A stretch of DNA of 64,000 nucleotides from Candidatus Omnitrophota bacterium (lineage in GTDB: Bacteria > Omnitrophota > Gorgyraeia > Gygaellales > Profunditerraquicolaceae). The stretch is taken from NCBI GenBank assembly GCA_026387315.1, contig JAPLLY010000015.1, forward strand, positions 1 to 64,000, given 5' to 3'. This document shows positions 19,924 through 39,377 of the stretch, one piece after another (the first letter of the stretch is position 1; every line of letters begins with the position of its first letter). The position numbers and the translations under genes are program-made. The notes below the pieces were generated by a model. It made no database searches. It was not told where the DNA came from and saw only the letters and a list, made by a program, of their open reading frames with translations.

Positions 19924-20958
19924 ATGCAGCATTTTGTTATACTTGCGAAAAAAGATTTAGACGCGTTTATCAGCGCGTTAGCGCAATCTCAAAAAGTGGT
20001 TGCTCCGGTTGCCCGGGGGTATAATAATTTCTCTTTTGGCGAAGTTTCATCGGCAAAAGATGTTGCCCTTAAGTATATCCCTACCATTTTACCTCCCAAA
20101 AAATATTTTCTTCCTACTCAGGAAACCATAACTGCTTATAATAAACGCCAGAATACGTTAAATGCTATTCTAGAATATGAAAAGATGGTTATTTTTGGCG
20201 TACATACCTGTGATCTGGCTGGCATACAATGCCTGAATATGGTTTTTGCGGATAAGCCTAAAGATATTAACTATATTATACGCAAGAATAAAATTGCGAT
20301 TATTGGTTTAGAGTGCAATGATTATTGTGATGAATATGCCAGTTGTTGTGTTGTGGGCAATCATTTACCCAACGGTGGTTATGATTTATTTTTTACTGAT
20401 TTAGGAGATGTTTTTATTGTGCACATTAATACCATGCTGGGGGATGAGTTAGTAAGTAAAGCGTCAGTTTTTAAGCCTGCGGACGCCAAGATGCTCAAGG
20501 CGCTTGAATCTTTGCGCCAAATGAAGCGTTCTATTTTTAAAGATGAGGTTAACGTAAAACACGAAAACCTTAAAGTCCTTTTTGATTGTTCATTGAATAG
20601 TAAAGTTTGGGAAGATTTGAATAAGCGTTGTGTTGTTTGTGGTAATTGCACCAATGTTTGCCCGACTTGTTATTGTTTTGATATTATTGATGAGCCGAAT
20701 CTTGATTTAAATACCGGAGCCCGATACCGGCGTTGGGATTCATGTCAAAATGAACCATTTGCTAAGGTGGCGGGTAATGAGAATTTCCGCAAAGAACGCG
20801 GCCAACGCCAGCGTCATCGCTATATGCGTAAGTTTAAATATCCGGTTGATAAATATAGCCGTTATTTTTGTACTGGTTGTGGCAGGTGTTCGCGTGCTTG
20901 CATGGCGAATATTAAACTTAAAGAAACAATTAATGATTTAGCGAAAGAAGCCAAATGA
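19924..20958 (+). CDS. hydB: Sulfhydrogenase/group 3b [NiFe]-hydrogenase beta subunit (4Fe-4S)
   Basis: CVVCGNCTNVCPTCYCFD and CTGCGRCSRACMANI; gene order. Confidence 0.8.
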   Translation: MQHFVILAKKDLDAFISALAQSQKVVAPVARGYNNFSFGEVSSAKDVALKYIPTILPPKKYFLPTQETITAYNKRQNTLNAILEYEKMVIFGVHTCDLAGIQCLNMVFADKPKDINYIIRKNKIAIIGLECNDYCDEYASCCVVGNHLPNGGYDLFFTDLGDVFIVHINTMLGDELVSKASVFKPADAKMLKALESLRQMKRSIFKDEVNVKHENLKVLFDCSLNSKVWEDLNKRCVVCGNCTNVCPTCYCFDIIDEPNLDLNTGARYRRWDSCQNEPFAKVAGNENFRKERGQRQRHRYMRKFKYPVDKYSRYFCTGCGRCSRACMANIKLKETINDLAKEAK

Positions 20959-21791
20959 AACGTATTGAATTAAAAGAGTCAGAATATATTGTCATGCCGG
21001 CTAAGATTCTTGAGGCGCGCATGATGACTGCCCAAGAAAAATATTTCAAGATTGCTTTAGAGGAAGGAATCAGCCTCGATCATGAGCCGGGGCAGTTTGT
21101 GATGATTTCTCTTTTAGGCATCGGAGAGGCGCCCATATCCATTTCTTCTTCGCCCACTAAGCGCAGTTATTTTGAGTTGGTAGTGCGCAATGCCGGCAAA
21201 GTAACTAATGCTTTGCATAAAATGGAGGCAGGGGATTCCTTGGGGATTCGCGGGCCTTTTGGGCGCGGATTTCCGGTGCAGATATTAGAAGGTAATGACC
21301 TTCTATTTGTAGCGGGTGGATTGGGAATCGTGCCCTTGCGTTCGTTGATTAACTTTGTAATTGATAATCGCCGTGATTTCGGCAAAGTGCACATTCTTCT
21401 GGGTTGTAAGAAACCCGCGGACCTGCTTTTTGCCAATGAGATCAAGGAGTGGGGCAAGAGGCTGGATGTTAACTTCAATTGTACGGTGGATAAAGCCGAT
21501 CCTGATTGGAAAGGCAATATTGGCTTAATTACTTCGCTTATCCCCGGAGTGAATCTTAATCCCAAGAGAACCTTCGCGGTAGTGGTTGGCCCGCCGATTA
21601 TGTATAAGTTTGTTTTAATTGAAATACTCAAGAAACAGATTCCTGAAAAACAGATTTACGTGTCTTTAGAAAGGCATATGAAATGTGGTATTGGAAAATG
21701 CGGCCATTGCCAGATCGCGCAATATTATTGTTGTAAGGATGGCCCGGTATTTTCATACGATCAAATTAAAGGTAACCCAGAAGCTTTATAA
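20955..21791 (+). CDS. hydG: Sulfhydrogenase gamma subunit (FAD/NAD(P) reductase, 2Fe-2S)
   Basis: EPGQFVMISLLGIGEAPISISS...VAGGLGIVPLRSLI...CGIGKCGHCQI (sulfhydrogenase HydG, not the radical SAM maturase). Confidence 0.8.
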   Translation: MKRIELKESEYIVMPAKILEARMMTAQEKYFKIALEEGISLDHEPGQFVMISLLGIGEAPISISSSPTKRSYFELVVRNAGKVTNALHKMEAGDSLGIRGPFGRGFPVQILEGNDLLFVAGGLGIVPLRSLINFVIDNRRDFGKVHILLGCKKPADLLFANEIKEWGKRLDVNFNCTVDKADPDWKGNIGLITSLIPGVNLNPKRTFAVVVGPPIMYKFVLIEILKKQIPEKQIYVSLERHMKCGIGKCGHCQIAQYYCCKDGPVFSYDQIKGNPEAL

Positions 21792-21800
21792 TACAATAGT

Positions 21801-22532
21801 ATGCGTAAACCTAAAGTTGCATTCTTTGATTTTTCATCTTGTGAAGGCTGCCAGCTGCAAGTGGCTAACTTCGGCGAAGCGCTTTTAGATATCCTTGGCC
21901 TGATTGATGTGGTCATGTTTCGTGAAGCGATGTCTGAAAAAAGTGATGATTATGACGTGGCGATTGTTGAGGGCAGTATTACAACTTCCCATGACCTAGA
22001 AAGGATTAAGAAGATTCGCGCTACCGCTAAAGTTTTGATTGCTTATGGATCTTGCGCTACTATCGGCGGGATTAATGGGATGAAGAATAATTTTGATCTT
22101 GAAGATATCAAGAAATACGTCTATAAGAATGCCGCTAAATATTTTGAATCTATTCCCACGCATCCATTACATCAGATAATTAAAGTTGATTACTATCTAC
22201 ACGGTTGCCCGGTTTATCAGCCGGAATTCGTAAAAGTTTTAAAATGCGCCTTAGCCGGCCTAGCATATGTTGTGCCGGATTATGCGGTTTGTGCCGAATG
22301 CCGTTTTAACGAAAATGTCTGTATGTATGATAAGGGGGTTACTTGCCTGGGGCCGGTGACTCGCGCTGGATGCAACTCTTGGTGTATTAATAATGGCAAT
22401 ATCTGTTATGGCTGCCGCGGGATGCTCAGTAATCCCGCTAAAGATGGGCAGATGGACATCTTGAAAAAATATAATATTTCTTTAGATTGGGTTGAGAATA
22501 AAATGAATATGTATAATAAGCCACGGGAGTAA
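21801..22532 (+). CDS. hydD: [NiFe]-hydrogenase small (delta) subunit
   Basis: SSCEGCQLQVANFGEALLDIL; C..C FeS pattern. Confidence 0.82.
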   Translation: MRKPKVAFFDFSSCEGCQLQVANFGEALLDILGLIDVVMFREAMSEKSDDYDVAIVEGSITTSHDLERIKKIRATAKVLIAYGSCATIGGINGMKNNFDLEDIKKYVYKNAAKYFESIPTHPLHQIIKVDYYLHGCPVYQPEFVKVLKCALAGLAYVVPDYAVCAECRFNENVCMYDKGVTCLGPVTRAGCNSWCINNGNICYGCRGMLSNPAKDGQMDILKKYNISLDWVENKMNMYNKPRE

Positions 22533-22537
22533 TGTAA

Positions 22538-23863
22538 ATGAGCAAAAACATCAAGGTTAATGTCGAATATTTGACCCGCGTAGAGGGCCATGGCAATATC
22601 GTGGTGAATGTGAAGAACGGCAAACTTGAGGAATGCCGTTTAGATATTGTTGAATCTCCCCGATTTTTCGAAGGGATGCTGCGCGGCCGTTCGATCTTTG
22701 AGGCCCAGCATATTACTTCACGTATCTGCGGTATCTGCGCTTGCGGGCATACCCTGGCTTCTATCCAGGCGGCCGAGGATGCCTTAGGATTTATCCCTTC
22801 AGAGCAAACGATCAAGTTGCGCAAGTTTCTTCTGCATCTGGAGAATCTGGATAGCCATATCTTACATATTTATTTATTGGTTGCCCCGGATCTTTTGGGA
22901 GTAAAAAGTTTTGTTCCTTTAATTGAAACACATAATACGGTTGTGCGCAGGGCGTTACGCATGAAAAAGGAATGTAATGATGTTTGTGATATTCTGGTTG
23001 GGCGCCACGTGCATCCGATCTCCTGTATTGTCGGCGGGTTTACCAAGCTCCCGCGGGAAAAAGATTTGCTCCGTATGCTCAACATTTTAATTGGCCTGCG
23101 TCCGGATATGGAAGCGACTTTAGAGTTAGCCAAGGCCCTTAAATTTCCACAGTTTAGCCGTGAAACTGAATATGTGAGCCTGGTTAATGATAGCAGTGAA
23201 TATCCGATGCTTTCAGGAGACTTAGGCTCAACTGATGGATTGCGAATGGCTAAAAAAGACTACCGTAAACTTACCAACGAATTTGTAGTTAGCCATTCTA
23301 GCGCTAAACACACCAAGGCTACTCGGCAATCTTATGCGGTTGGGGCGCTGGCGCGTTTTAATCTTAACCAGCATAAACTTCATCCCAAGGCTAAAGAAGC
23401 AGCTAAGGCTTTGGGGATGAAACCAATAGTAACTAACCCATACTTAAATACTGCTGCCCAGCTGATTGAATGTGTGCATTCGCTGGAGGATGCTATTGAG
23501 ATCTTGGAAAGGCTTAAAGATAAAGGTGTGGATTATTCCCAGGAGATTGTGGTGGGCTTAAATGAACGGGGTACTATTCCAGTTAAGGCGGGTTGCGGCA
23601 TTGGGGCAGTTGAAGTTCCCAGAGGAATTCTATTCCATGAATATGAAATTGATAATCAAGGTAAGATTGTCAACGCTAATTGCGTTATTCCTACCGGGCA
23701 GAATTTGAATAATATCGAACATGATATGGCCTCATTAGTTCCTCAAATACTTGATAAGAGCCAAGAAGAGATTACTCTCCTGCTGGAGATGCTGGTACGC
23801 GCTTATGACCCGTGTATCTCCTGCTCCGCGCATTTTTTGAATGTCAAATTTGTTGGCCGGTAA
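22538..23863 (+). CDS. hydA: [NiFe]-hydrogenase large (alpha) subunit, group 3b-like
   Basis: SRICGICACGH and DPCISCSAH Ni-binding motifs. Confidence 0.88.
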   Translation: MSKNIKVNVEYLTRVEGHGNIVVNVKNGKLEECRLDIVESPRFFEGMLRGRSIFEAQHITSRICGICACGHTLASIQAAEDALGFIPSEQTIKLRKFLLHLENLDSHILHIYLLVAPDLLGVKSFVPLIETHNTVVRRALRMKKECNDVCDILVGRHVHPISCIVGGFTKLPREKDLLRMLNILIGLRPDMEATLELAKALKFPQFSRETEYVSLVNDSSEYPMLSGDLGSTDGLRMAKKDYRKLTNEFVVSHSSAKHTKATRQSYAVGALARFNLNQHKLHPKAKEAAKALGMKPIVTNPYLNTAAQLIECVHSLEDAIEILERLKDKGVDYSQEIVVGLNERGTIPVKAGCGIGAVEVPRGILFHEYEIDNQGKIVNANCVIPTGQNLNNIEHDMASLVPQILDKSQEEITLLLEMLVRAYDPCISCSAHFLNVKFVGR

Positions 23864-24422
23864 TACTGGCTCAGTAACCAATCTTTTAACTCCCCAAGAA
23901 TTTTCTCACACACTGATTATCACTGTAGGTAATTGTTTTCGCGCTGATGATGGAGTGGGGCCATATATCGCCTCTGGTCTAAAACCGAGCGTTAAGCTTT
24001 CGGTGATTGACGCCGGATCTACTCCGGGAAATATCATTGATCAGGCGATAAAGTTATTTGCGCAGCAGGAGGCCTTACTTGAGAGGCCGGTACGCGCCTC
24101 TGCGCGGCACCCGGCCTTATCTGAGAGGCCGGTACGCGCCTCTGCGCAGAGGATTATCTTTATTGATGCGGCGGATTTTGGGGGAGCGCCCGGAGAATTG
24201 CGCCTCATTGATGCCGAACATATTCCCGAGTCAACTTTAAGCACGCACAGTATGCCATTGCCGGTGATTAGCCGTATTTTGTATGAAGATACTCAGGCCG
24301 AGATTTATTTTATCGGTATTCAGCCTAAAAGCGTAGAACATAAAGATGGCCTTTCTAAAGAGGTAAGTTCTACTGCCGACGCGCTGATTAAGCATATTAA
24401 TCAGGAGTTTAAGGATGCATGA
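23841..24422 (+). CDS. hycI: Hydrogenase maturation protease with an in-frame palindromic repeat insertion
   Basis: TVGNCFRADDGVGPYIA, IDAGSTPGN, IIFIDAADFGGAPGELRLID; insertion LERPVRASARHPALSERPVRASA. Confidence 0.78.
   Translation: MSNLLAGNTGSVTNLLTPQEFSHTLIITVGNCFRADDGVGPYIASGLKPSVKLSVIDAGSTPGNIIDQAIKLFAQQEALLERPVRASARHPALSERPVRASAQRIIFIDAADFGGAPGELRLIDAEHIPESTLSTHSMPLPVISRILYEDTQAEIYFIGIQPKSVEHKDGLSKEVSSTADALIKHINQEFKDA
24071..24147 (+). repeat. Tandem 35-nt palindromic unit inside the maturation protease CDS
   Basis: GGCCTTAyyTGAGAGGCCGGTACGCGCCTCTGCGC at 24071-24105 and 24113-24147, period 42. Confidence 0.9.
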
Positions 24423-24660
24423 AATTCATTTTCTGGAGGATTTATTTAAAGATATCCTACATCATCTTAGCCAGCATAATGCCAAAAATGTAACGCAGGT
24501 GTTTTTGGAATTAGGCGAGTTTACTGAGATTAATGAGGAGTGCTTAAGGTTTTTCTTTAAAGAAAAATCTCAAGGCTCAGCATTAGAGAATGCTTTATTC
24601 AGTATAAAACATATTCCGCAACAGCGCGTTTTGCGCCTGGTTTCATTTGATTATGATTAA
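24415..24660 (+). CDS. hypA: HypA-like protein lacking the zinc-finger region
   Basis: MHE start, VTQVFLELGEFTEINEECLRFFFKEKSQGS...FSIKHIP; no CxxC pairs. Confidence 0.65.
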   Translation: MHEIHFLEDLFKDILHHLSQHNAKNVTQVFLELGEFTEINEECLRFFFKEKSQGSALENALFSIKHIPQQRVLRLVSFDYD

Positions 24661-24687: not shown

Positions 24688-24731
24688 GGGGACGGTTCTG
24701 TTTTTTATATATAAAAAACAGAACCGTCCCC
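24688..24731. repeat. GGGGACGGTTCT palindromic element (3)
   Basis: GGGGACGGTTCTGTTTTTT...AAAAAACAGAACCGTCCCC. Confidence 0.9.
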
Positions 24732-24752: not shown

Positions 24753-26060
24753 ATGTGTTATGCAATTCCCGGAAAAATAGAGGCGATTAATAATAAGATG
24801 GTGGTTGTAGACTACTTCGGCGAGAAGAAGAAAGCCTATAATGAACTAGATGGTTTGTCTGTCGGTGATTATATCTACGCCCAGGGTGGTTATGCTATTG
24901 CGAAAATTCCCGAAGATGAAGCCAAAAGCATTCTGGCTGTTTGGAAGGAGACTTTTTTTGAGCTTCAGGAAGTTGACCTAAAGCTTTCCCGCCTGGACCT
25001 TAATCAGAAATCTGTATCCGGCGAATTCTTGAGAATATTGGATAAGGCAGCCGAAGGCAAGAAACTTTCGCCGGAAGAACTCCTGATTTTGATTAAGGAA
25101 AAAAATAAACCCGCCCTGGAGCTTCTTTTCAAAACGGCAAATTTCTTGCGTCAGAAACACCATAAGAATTCTTGCTGCGTGCATGGGATTATTGAAATTT
25201 CCAATTACTGCCGCTGTAATTGTGATTATTGCGGTATCGCTAAGGGTAACCAAAATATTACGCGTTATCGCTTAACTTGCGGCCAGATACTTGAAGCTGC
25301 CCGGCAAGCAATACAGGAGCATGGTTTTAAGGCGCTGGTGTTGCAATCCGGTGAAGATAGTGGATATAGTATAGAGGAGCTTGCCGAGATTATCCGTAAG
25401 ATAAAAGTTAATTGGCCGGCTCTAATTTTTATTAGCTTCGGAGAAGTGGGGCTGGATAATTTAAAGATTCTTTATGATGCCGGCGCGCGGGGATTGCTTT
25501 TGCGATTTGAAACATCTAACCCCAAGCTTTATCAACAGGTCACCGCGGGTAAAGATCTGGCTAGCCGCATTGCGCATTTAAAAAAAGCTTATGAGTTGGG
25601 CTATATGATTATTACCGGAGGTTTGATTGGCTTGCCGCAACAAAGCCCAGAAGATCTTTTAAATGACATACTTTTAACTAAAGAGTTGCATGCCGAGATG
25701 TTTAGTTTTGGCCCATTTATTAGGCATCCGCAAACCCCGCTGGCTAAATATCCATCGCCCGAAGTAGAAACTGTGCTTAAGGTTATTGCTATTTCGCGCA
25801 TCATTGATGCGGCGAATGCTAAAATTCTAGTTACTACTGCCTTGGAGACACTTAATCCTGATGCTAGGAGAGAGGCGCTGCTTAGCGGAGCGAATTCCGT
25901 GATGCTTAATGTAACTCCGCTTGAATACCGGTCCTTTTATAACATTTATCCTGCGCGCGCTCATGAAAAAGAGAGCATCGCAGTTCAGATTAAAGATACT
26001 ATCGGGCTTCTAATGTCTCTAGGACGCTCACCTACTGATTTAAGTGTGTTATCCCCGTGA
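24753..26060 (+). CDS. HypC-HydE fusion protein
   Basis: N-term MCYAIPGKIEAINNKMVVVDYFG...LSVGDYIYAQGGYAIAKI (HypC); C-term NYCRCNCDYCGI (CX3CX2C), VLQSGEDSGYSIEELAEI, GGLIGLPQQSPEDLLNDILL, FGPFIRHPQTPL (HydE). Confidence 0.88.
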   Translation: MCYAIPGKIEAINNKMVVVDYFGEKKKAYNELDGLSVGDYIYAQGGYAIAKIPEDEAKSILAVWKETFFELQEVDLKLSRLDLNQKSVSGEFLRILDKAAEGKKLSPEELLILIKEKNKPALELLFKTANFLRQKHHKNSCCVHGIIEISNYCRCNCDYCGIAKGNQNITRYRLTCGQILEAARQAIQEHGFKALVLQSGEDSGYSIEELAEIIRKIKVNWPALIFISFGEVGLDNLKILYDAGARGLLLRFETSNPKLYQQVTAGKDLASRIAHLKKAYELGYMIITGGLIGLPQQSPEDLLNDILLTKELHAEMFSFGPFIRHPQTPLAKYPSPEVETVLKVIAISRIIDAANAKILVTTALETLNPDARREALLSGANSVMLNVTPLEYRSFYNIYPARAHEKESIAVQIKDTIGLLMSLGRSPTDLSVLSP

Positions 26061-26140: not shown

Positions 26141-26773
26141 ATGAAAACGAACAAACTTTGTATTATGCGGCTTTCTAAGTATAAGAGCGCGCTTTATCGC
26201 CTTAAATCACTGGGTTTTGTGCGGATTTTTTCGGATAATTTAGCGGATGCCGTAGAGGTAACTTCGTCTCAGGTGCGTAAGGATTTTTCTATTTTTGATA
26301 TATCGGGAAATAAACGCGGCGGCTATAAGATTGATGAACTGATTGAAAAGATTAATACTATTCTTGGTAAAGATGAATTGCAAAAAGTGGTGATTGTTGG
26401 TTTAGGAAAGCTGGGATCCGCTCTTACGCATTATACTGGTTTTGAGAAAGAGGGGATAAAGGTTGTCGCTGCTTTTGATATAGACGCGTTAAAATTTAAA
26501 CCCAAAGAGAAAACCCCGGTTTTCCCCTTAGCCGGCCTGCCGGAGTTTGTGCGTAAGAATAATATTAAAATTGGAATTATTACGGTCCCGGCTGCGGCCG
26601 CCCAGCCAGTAGTTGATATTATGCTTTCGGCAGGAATTAAAGGGGTATTAAATTTTGCCCCAATACAACTGCGGGGAAATGATGATTGCCTGATAAACAA
26701 TGTGAATCTTGAGGTAGAGCTGGAAAACCTTATTTATTTCGTTAATGCCTTAATTAAGGCAAAAGGAAAATAA
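26141..26773 (+). CDS. rex: Redox-sensing transcriptional repressor Rex
   Basis: ADAVEVTSSQVRKDFSIFDISGNKRGGYKIDELI; VVIVGLGKLGSALTHY Rossmann fold. Confidence 0.9.
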   Translation: MKTNKLCIMRLSKYKSALYRLKSLGFVRIFSDNLADAVEVTSSQVRKDFSIFDISGNKRGGYKIDELIEKINTILGKDELQKVVIVGLGKLGSALTHYTGFEKEGIKVVAAFDIDALKFKPKEKTPVFPLAGLPEFVRKNNIKIGIITVPAAAAQPVVDIMLSAGIKGVLNFAPIQLRGNDDCLINNVNLEVELENLIYFVNALIKAKGK

Positions 26774-26780
26774 GCAGTAA

Positions 26781-28169
26781 ATGAAGCAGATTAATGAAGA
26801 GAGAATAAATAACTTATTATTGTCCACTGCCGATAGCGATAGCCGTAAAATTGACAGGATTATTAATAAAAGCAAATCCTTAAAAAGGCTTACGCTGGAA
26901 GAATCAGCCATCCTGCTGGCAGTTCAGGATGCCGGCTCTCTTGAAAAAATATTTGCCGCGGCTAGTTTTGTTAAAGATGCAATTTACGGCAGGCGAGTGG
27001 TATTATTTGCCCCGCTTTATATCAGCAATTTCTGCGTAAATAACTGCCTTTATTGCGCGTTTAAATCCGATAACTTGGCAATTAAGCGTAAAGCCTTAAG
27101 CGCAGCTGAAATTAAATCGCAAACTGAATGGCTCTTAGGCCGTGGACATAAAAGAATACTGATGGTTTGCGGGGAGGAAGCGCCTGGTGGGGAATCTAAT
27201 GTAGATTATTATGTCCAAGCAGTGAAAGCTATTTATGCTGCGGAAGTGGGTAAGAATAAGATTAAAAGGGTTAATGTTAATTGCGCGCCGCTGAGTATTG
27301 ATGATTTTAAAAAGCTTAAATCAAGCGGTATAGGGACTTACCAGATTTTTCAGGAAACATATCATCAGAAAACTTATCTGCGTATGCATCCTAAAGGGCC
27401 AAAAAGTGATCCTGATAATAGGATTGATGCGGTTGATCGGGCATTTAAAGCCGGGATAGATGATATAGGGATTGGCGCGCTTTATGGTTTATTTGACTGG
27501 CGTTTTGAGACATTAGGATTGCTTTCCCATATTGAGCATATGGAGGAGAAATTTAAAGTCGGGCCGCATACTATTTCTGTGCCGCGTATTGAGCCGGCAG
27601 AGGGCGCGGAGCTGTCCCTGAGGCCTCCCCATAAAATTTCTGATGATGAATTTAAAAAGGTGGTGGCGATTTTAAGGCTTTCTGTGCCCTATACCGGGAT
27701 CATTATGACTACCCGTGAGAATGCTTTGATGCGCGATGCCTTGATTAGCCTGGGGGTTTCCCAGATTAGCGCTGAATCTAATACCTCTCCCGGAGGGTAT
27801 TCTGCCAGCCGTGCCGAGCAGGCAGGCGGTCAGTTTTCGCTTGGTGACCAGCGCAGCCTGGATGAGATCGTGGGGACTTTGATTGCCCATGATTATATCC
27901 CCAGTTTTTGCGCTGCCTGTTATCGCATGGAAAGAACCGGCGAAGCCTTTATGCAATTAGCTAAACCCGGAATGATCAAAGGTAAATGTAGTATGAATGC
28001 TTTAATTACTCTGCAAGAATATCTCGATGATTTTGCATCAGTTAAAGTTAAGCAGGCCGGGTACAAAATGATTGAGCGTTATTTTAACAAACTGGATAAT
28101 GTTGATCAGGATATGCTAAAGTTCTTCTTTAGCCATGTAGATTCCGGAATAAGGGATGAGTATGTTTAA
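26781..28169 (+). CDS. hydG: [FeFe]-hydrogenase H-cluster radical SAM maturase HydG
   Basis: CVNNCLYCAFKSDN (CX3CX2C) and C-terminal CAACYRMERTGEAFMQLAKPGMIKGKC. Confidence 0.9.
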   Translation: MKQINEERINNLLLSTADSDSRKIDRIINKSKSLKRLTLEESAILLAVQDAGSLEKIFAAASFVKDAIYGRRVVLFAPLYISNFCVNNCLYCAFKSDNLAIKRKALSAAEIKSQTEWLLGRGHKRILMVCGEEAPGGESNVDYYVQAVKAIYAAEVGKNKIKRVNVNCAPLSIDDFKKLKSSGIGTYQIFQETYHQKTYLRMHPKGPKSDPDNRIDAVDRAFKAGIDDIGIGALYGLFDWRFETLGLLSHIEHMEEKFKVGPHTISVPRIEPAEGAELSLRPPHKISDDEFKKVVAILRLSVPYTGIIMTTRENALMRDALISLGVSQISAESNTSPGGYSASRAEQAGGQFSLGDQRSLDEIVGTLIAHDYIPSFCAACYRMERTGEAFMQLAKPGMIKGKCSMNALITLQEYLDDFASVKVKQAGYKMIERYFNKLDNVDQDMLKFFFSHVDSGIRDEYV

Positions 28170-38820: not shown

Positions 38821-39377
38821 AACAGACCGACTATCCCCGGGCTTTAGCCCGGGGCAGTAAAGGGCTGCGAAGCGAAGCCAGAATTTTTCTGGCTGAGCGA
38901 AGGGCATTGTGGCATAATCTGGTTATGGCCAGATACTGGAAAGGCGCACATACACGGCACAAACTGCAATACCATTTGGTATGGGTACCCAAGTATCGTA
39001 AACGGGTGCTACGAGGTAAAATAGCCTATCGTTTAAAAGGGCTGCTCTACGATGGGTGCAGGATGAACCGTTGGTGGATAGGAAAGATGAGTATCCAAGA
39101 CGACCATGTGCATTTATTGCTACAGTTGCGGGCAAGTGATAGCATTGCTGAGTCAGTCCGGATATTGAAAGGCGGCACAAGCAGGATAATCCGCAAGGAG
39201 TTTCCAGAACTGGAAGAGTTTTTATGGGGCGATAGTTTCTGGGCGGATGGCTATTTTGCCGAATCGGTAGGTCATGTCGATGAAGAAGTCATCAAAAAGT
39301 ATATTGATGAGCAACGCAAATAACCAGATTATGCAGAAGGTTTGAAACCACGGGCTTTAGCCCGTGGAGTATTCATT
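38821..39377 (+). mobile_element. IS200/IS605-family element (tnpA only)
   Basis: Subterminal hairpins CCCCGGGCTTTAGCCCGGGG (left) and CCACGGGCTTTAGCCCGTGG (right) around a Y1 transposase; empty-site copy at ~43975-44114 defines the ends to within ~2 nt. Confidence 0.85.
38925..39323 (+). CDS. tnpA: IS200-type Y1 HUH transposase
   Basis: HKLQYHLVWVPKYRKRVL; DDHVHLLL; SFWADGYFAESVGHVDEEVIKKYIDEQ. Confidence 0.88.
   Translation: MARYWKGAHTRHKLQYHLVWVPKYRKRVLRGKIAYRLKGLLYDGCRMNRWWIGKMSIQDDHVHLLLQLRASDSIAESVRILKGGTSRIIRKEFPELEEFLWGDSFWADGYFAESVGHVDEEVIKKYIDEQRK

Follow-up and report, generated by a model that had tools for sequence, protein, structure and literature searches.

A HypC-HydE fusion protein and HydG as a probable HypDEF-independent maturation pathway for [NiFe] hydrogenases

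Results and Discussion

A gene encoding a HypC domain fused to a HydE-like radical SAM domain was found in a [NiFe] hydrogenase operon on a 64,000-nucleotide stretch of DNA (hereafter the window) from a Candidatus Omnitrophota bacterium. We consider it likely that this fusion acts with HydG in a pathway that supplies [NiFe] hydrogenases with their Fe-CO/CN group independently of HypD, HypE and HypF, a proposal for which no biochemistry is available. The replacement of HypDEF by the fusion and HydG is a strong inference from genome comparison, and the predicted chemistry is untested. The proposal is supported by the operon linkage of the fusion to [NiFe] hydrogenase, maturation protease and HydG genes, by a natural HypC-HydE-HydG protein in one near-closed genome, and by a set of residues private to the clade formed by the fusions. 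One fusion genome in which HydG was not detected (G109) and one that carries both systems (G146) count against it, as does the ligand stoichiometry discussed below.

The Fusion Gene and Its Domains

24753–26060, + strand: HypC-HydE fusion gene, a single open frame of 435 aa with an ATG start
24753–24944, + strand: HypC domain, aa 1–64 (Pfam)
25173–25184, + strand: fusion-specific motif C141 C142 V H144, where the first barrel strand begins
25209–25232, + strand: radical SAM [4Fe-4S] motif C153-x3-C157-x2-C160, invariant among fusions

In translation, the frame contained MCYAIPGKI, CRCNCDYCG, VLQSGED, GGLIGLPQQSPEDL and GPFIRHPQTPL. A preliminary description made from the sequence had read it as one frame joining a complete HypC-like domain to a HydE-like radical SAM protein and had proposed profile searches as a check; this reading was confirmed. 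The N-terminus did score as HypC, with 53.2 bits for HupF_HypC (PF01455; cut-off 28.5, E 3e-14) over aa 1–64, and was missed only by the narrower NCBIfam profile hypC_hupF (TIGR00074; 41.7 bits, cut-off 48). The HydE-like radical SAM part extended over aa ~96–430 and included a Pfam Radical_SAM match at aa 147–304 (58.4 bits). HydE (TIGR03956) was the best NCBIfam match of the fusion (aa 96–407), and its 247.9 bits fell about 7 bits short of the equivalog cut-off of 254.6, which suggests that HydE chemistry may not be performed by the fusion.

An AlphaFold2 model built with 43 relatives had a pLDDT of 93.4 and a pTM of 0.92, and its top Foldseek match was Thermotoga maritima HydE (3ciw; TM-score 0.93 by target length). 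As modelled, the radical SAM barrel has the HydE fold with the CX3CX2C motif.

The fusions formed one clade separate from canonical HydE (SH-aLRT 100), in a tree that included only 11 canonical sequences. Five proteins from a plasmid search, in which every match listed was either a relative of canonical HydE or another radical SAM protein, served as controls in the clade and residue comparisons. The motif C141 C142 V H144 was present in all 46 fusions and in none of the 11 canonical HydE, which have V/I, a variable residue and R at the positions of C141, C142 and H144. Other invariant residues private to the fusions were R246 (D/N in canonical HydE), F252, F319, E365 and S382; the SAM cluster cysteines and most HydE-conserved residues were retained. 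Within the HypC domain, Met1-Cys2 was invariant in full-length fusions, and the usual His of the VHxG motif was replaced by Gln44 in 46/46 fusions, compared to His in all 12 standalone HypC proteins matched.

Gene Context in the Window

19924–20958, + strand: sulfhydrogenase beta-type Fe-S subunit for electron transfer (ORF; orthologues precede the fusion in longer loci)
20955–21791, + strand: sulfhydrogenase gamma-type FAD/NAD(P) reductase subunit (ORF; synteny)
21801–22532, + strand: [NiFe] hydrogenase small (delta) subunit (Pfam Oxidored_q6, NF040836)
22538–23863, + strand: large subunit of a group 3b-type [NiFe] hydrogenase (PF00374; NF040832 is the top match, below its cut-off)
23841–24422, + strand: HycI/HyaD-type hydrogenase maturation protease (TIGR00072, above cut-off)
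24415–24660, + strand: short HypA-like protein of 81 aa with the N-terminal Ni-binding MHE and without Zn finger (PF01155, above cut-off)
26141–26773, + strand: Rex redox-sensing repressor (NF003996, above cut-off)
26781–28169, + strand: HydG, tyrosine lyase (TIGR03955, 482 bits, cut-off 312)

This arrangement bears out the earlier placement of the fusion downstream of a [NiFe] hydrogenase and two genes before HydG, with Rex, a likely regulator of the hydrogenase operon, in between. The large subunit showed both features checked for group 3b, the two CxxC Ni ligands and a cleavable C-terminal tail (RICGICACGH and DPCISCSAHFLNVKFVGR). Its Ni-binding CxxC motifs lie in RICGICACGH and DPCISCSAH, the PRG/PTxQN pocket is also present, and the tail is the part expected to be removed by the protease. 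In HydG, both the CX3CX2C motif and the C-terminal CX2CX22C cluster motif were intact.

The protease gene contained two in-frame tandem copies of 42 bp (24059–24142) and encodes 193 aa, compared to about 150–170 aa in relatives. The short HypA form was also kept in relatives. Such Zn-finger-less HypA proteins (~80 aa) were common in the phylum and adjoined both the fusion and standalone HypC (24415–24660; L196, L197, and L202). A role of the short HypA as a fusion-specific part was therefore rejected, since it also occurs beside standalone HypC and the Zn form is present in G002, a genome with the fusion.

Distribution of the Fusion

The same architecture was found in 46 distinct homologous proteins. 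Among relatives and GTDB contigs, the carriers belonged to Omnitrophota and Saganbacteria and also included two Spirochaetes, an uncultured sediment bin and one deltaproteobacterial MAG; relatives that matched only over the HydE part likewise started with HypC. The usual gene order was large subunit, protease, short HypA (in some loci), fusion, Rex (in some loci) and HydG, with HydG followed by the fusion as an alternative. Since certain loci listed under two handles lie on the same contig, we counted by genome and not by locus.

With 46 distinct homologues conserved across phyla, an assembly artefact, raised in the preliminary description as a possible refutation, was ruled out, as was chance. 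The other refutation considered there, that homologous genomes carry the two parts as separate unrelated genes, applied only in an informative sense: the relatives concerned carried standalone HypC accompanied by HypDEF, or canonical HydE accompanied by HydF and [FeFe] HydA.

In the near-closed genome G092 (1.8 Mb, 2 contigs, 96% complete), HypC, HydE and HydG were found as a single protein of 915 aa. It is encoded in the sole [NiFe] operon of this genome, together with a membrane [NiFe] hydrogenase of the Mbh/Mrp-like kind, a protease and a short HypA; profile searches of G092 detected no HypD, HypE, HypF, HydF or HydA. This natural three-part fusion argues that the steps of HypC, HydE and HydG are consecutive.

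Replacement of HypDEF

The comparison set comprised 68 distinct genomes, 49 of them with the fusion. A [NiFe] large subunit was present in 56 genomes, of which 47 contained the fusion without HypD and seven contained HypD without the fusion; one (G146, a fragmented MAG) carried both systems, and in one (G090) the HydE-like match lay in a short frame of 278 aa that is probably truncated by a contig end. G116 was [NiFe]-negative by profile, yet a partial large subunit adjoins its fusion. HypD was absent in 48/49 fusion genomes. Clear HypE and HypF matches were obtained only alongside HypD, i.e., in the HypD genomes and G146; G032 showed HypD and HypF and no HypE match. Except for G146, the HypC domain of the fusion was the sole HypC domain in fusion genomes. 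Genomes of the same genus with only canonical HydE contained [FeFe] HydA, no [NiFe] hydrogenase and no fusion, and all but G010 also contained HydF.

On the phylum scale, in 384 Omnitrophota genomes, HypC of the fusion class and HypD hardly ever occurred together. Strong standalone HypC was present in 137 genomes, 136 of which contained HypD, and weak HypC of the fusion class was present in 60 genomes, 59 of which lacked HypD; the exception was G263 with an 82-bit fragment. Frames of 402–499 aa were available for the better-scoring part of these 60, and frames of about 390–460 aa, plus one of 917 aa, for others; the class of the remainder is inferred from the score. The association of HypC class with HypD (Fisher p 3e-48) ignores relatedness and is descriptive only. 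All genomes are MAG-grade, and absences rest on profile searches and are not absolute; the genomes are also related to each other, so that the counts are not independent.

Unlike other fusion-class genomes, G259 and G407 showed two HypC matches each. Besides, the HypD frame of G405 reads through two TGA codons and that of G258 through one TAG.

HydG Without an [FeFe] System

HydF and [FeFe] HydA were both missing in 35 of the 49 fusion genomes, and in 33 of these 35 HydG scored above its cut-off. The retention of HydG without an [FeFe] system implies that its tyrosine-derived CO and CN need another customer, for which the [NiFe] hydrogenase is the obvious candidate. The preliminary description had suggested a hybrid route in which an Fe-CO/CN species from HydG/HydE chemistry reaches a HypC carrier, or else a mere fusion of a carrier domain to HydE; the phyletic pattern, with HypD, HypE and HypF replaced and HydG kept, favours the hybrid route over the latter, its chemistry remaining unproven.

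The source genome alone would not settle the question. In this MAG (1.80 Mb, 62 contigs, 93% complete), the fusion was single-copy, and genome-wide profile searches detected no HypD, HypE, HypF, HydF or second HydE. The absence of these genes from the window thus held for the whole assembly, but that of an [FeFe] catalytic gene did not: one [FeFe] HydA was found, its gene cut by the end of a 5,958-bp contig on which Rex and HydC/HydB-like genes are also located (L170, G000:C33). The case therefore rests on the relatives.

The HydA of the source genome and of 13 fusion genomes, together with the HydE fold and the HydE best family match, would be compatible with a fusion that is simply a HydE for [FeFe] H-cluster assembly, its HypC-like part being a docking or carrier module. 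We consider this highly improbable, since it is already contradicted by the 33 genomes with HydG and without HydF and HydA. Moreover, genomes with a HydF-containing [FeFe] system usually have a separate canonical HydE, and the fusion is located in [NiFe] operons and missing from [FeFe]-only genomes of the same genus.

Several genomes with both the fusion and an [FeFe] system had a single HydG above cut-off (e.g., G007, G011, G012, and G021), which by inference would supply both HydE and the fusion. A split of HydG into [NiFe]- and [FeFe]-dedicated clades was not seen, and HydGs from [FeFe] clusters nested among the fusion-linked ones in this small sample. The C-terminal CX2CX22C motif was intact in 30 of 32 HydG sequences. 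In those of G092 and G145 (L157 13651–16398; L168), which formed a deep separate branch, it was replaced by C-x5-C-x19-C. In G109 (96% complete, 10 contigs), which contains a sulfhydrogenase and the fusion (L156), HydG was not found at E 1e-40.

The [NiFe] Client Enzymes

The 3b large subunit of the HypD genome G083 showed 86.4% identity to that of the fusion genome G103 and 79–86% to those of eight other fusion genomes, with identical PRG and CVIPTNQN motifs. In the large-subunit tree, the two HypD-type sequences were scattered among the fusion-type sequences and did not group together. Adaptation of the large-subunit pocket to a different set of ligands was not supported, as no difference between the maturation systems was seen. 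That the client switches maturation system with its pocket unchanged suggests the same final cofactor. No activity data exist for any of these hydrogenases, and it could be argued that they remain immature or hold a different metal site, the role of the fusion being unrelated. We give this almost no credence, since the four Ni-binding cysteines, the PRG and PT/PS pocket, the protease and the 3b C-terminal tail are all kept and the large subunits are 79–86% identical to those of HypDEF genomes.

One hydrogenase large-subunit gene (G146:C8, L071) contained an in-frame TGA and perhaps encodes a selenoprotein.

Proposed Pathway

HypC delivery and protease processing are established in other systems. 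HydG makes CO and CN from tyrosine, and its Fe(CO)2(CN)(Cys) synthon is handed directly to HydE, where it is adenosylated and reduced (PMC12752695). HypC-family chaperones bring Fe(CN)2CO to large subunits (PMC12134894, PMC8692609).

In the proposed pathway, HydG would split tyrosine into CO and CN and use its C-terminal cluster to build the Fe(CO)2(CN)(Cys) synthon, which is known chemistry for HydG. The radical SAM domain related to HydE is inferred to accept this synthon, a step known for HydE itself, and to release the iron from cysteine by adenosyl-radical chemistry; its altered pocket (CC-x-H, R246/G247, and E365) may suit a mononuclear [NiFe] product over a dinuclear [2Fe] one. The iron species would then move to Cys2 of the fused HypC, and C141/C142 might also hold the iron, replacing the HypD cysteine. 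Finally, HypC would hand the iron species to the apo-large subunit, and HypA and the protease would complete maturation as usual.

The HydG synthon carries two CO and one CN, compared to one CO and two CN in [NiFe] hydrogenases; if the cofactor is canonical, a conversion is needed that is unexplained, which counts against the pathway. A cofactor in which all CO/CN ligands are tyrosine-derived and the iron at the same time retains Fe(CO)2(CN), rather than the Fe(CN)2CO reported for [NiFe], is a combination that we regard as unlikely. Part of the stoichiometry problem would be resolved if HydG gave CO only and CN came from another, unrecognised source, with the HydE-like domain taking the place of HypD as a scaffold. 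Where the CO comes from in anaerobic [NiFe] maturation is not known (PMC12134894), and the invariant C141/C142 could serve as a HypD-type second ligand. However, HydG produces CN as well as CO, no fusion genome except G146 has a true HypF or HypE, and the invariant radical SAM motif indicates that catalysis is kept; a CO-only role of HydG is thus very unlikely.

Comparison With Known Systems

The proposed route from HydG through the fusion matches neither HypCDEF nor HydEFG, since each fails a tested defining feature. It shares with HypCDEF a HypC domain with Cys2, the [NiFe] client, a HypA-like protein and a maturation protease, but HypD, HypE and HypF are absent, the HypC His is changed to Gln, and the source of CO and CN is predicted to be tyrosine instead of carbamoyl phosphate. 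With HydEFG it shares an intact HydG, the HydE-like radical SAM fold with its SAM cluster and, probably, the Fe(CO)2(CN)(Cys) synthon, whereas most carriers lack HydF and [FeFe] hydrogenase, the HydE-like domain stands apart as a separate clade with residues of its own, and the client is a [NiFe] enzyme. The HmdB/Hcg radical SAM proteins of [Fe]-hydrogenase are also HydE relatives outside [FeFe] systems; however, the HmdB score of the fusion (75.6 bits, NCBIfam) was far below cut-off, and HmdB/Hcg have a different client and no HypC. HypX likewise is a dedicated enzyme that provides CO for [NiFe] hydrogenases, but its substrate is formyl-THF and it acts alongside HypCDEF in the presence of air (PMC6802093).

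The novelty lies in the pathway; the domains themselves are all of known families. Neither a HypC-HydE fusion nor HydG-dependent [NiFe] maturation was found in the open-access literature searched, preprints excluded. If confirmed, this would to our knowledge be the first HypDEF-free route to the [NiFe] cofactor. It would place HydG, a known maker of CO and CN, in the position of HypDEF and so provide an anaerobic CO source for [NiFe] maturation; the oxygen-free origin of this CO was called the most pressing question in the field in a 2025 review. It would also connect two maturation systems usually regarded as unrelated, in mostly uncultivated bacteria whose HydG and HydE parts appear to be borrowed from the [FeFe] pathway, and could offer a three-domain, possibly one-polypeptide tool to produce [NiFe] hydrogenases.

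A Repeated Element in the Window

The element GGGGACGGTTCTNTTTTTTATA was present in 12 copies in the window, at sites from 16991 to 61805, compared to 0 expected by chance. An IS200-like transposase ORF (38907–39323) is possibly related to it. One copy, at 24688–24731, is a perfect 44-bp palindrome located between hypA and the fusion gene.
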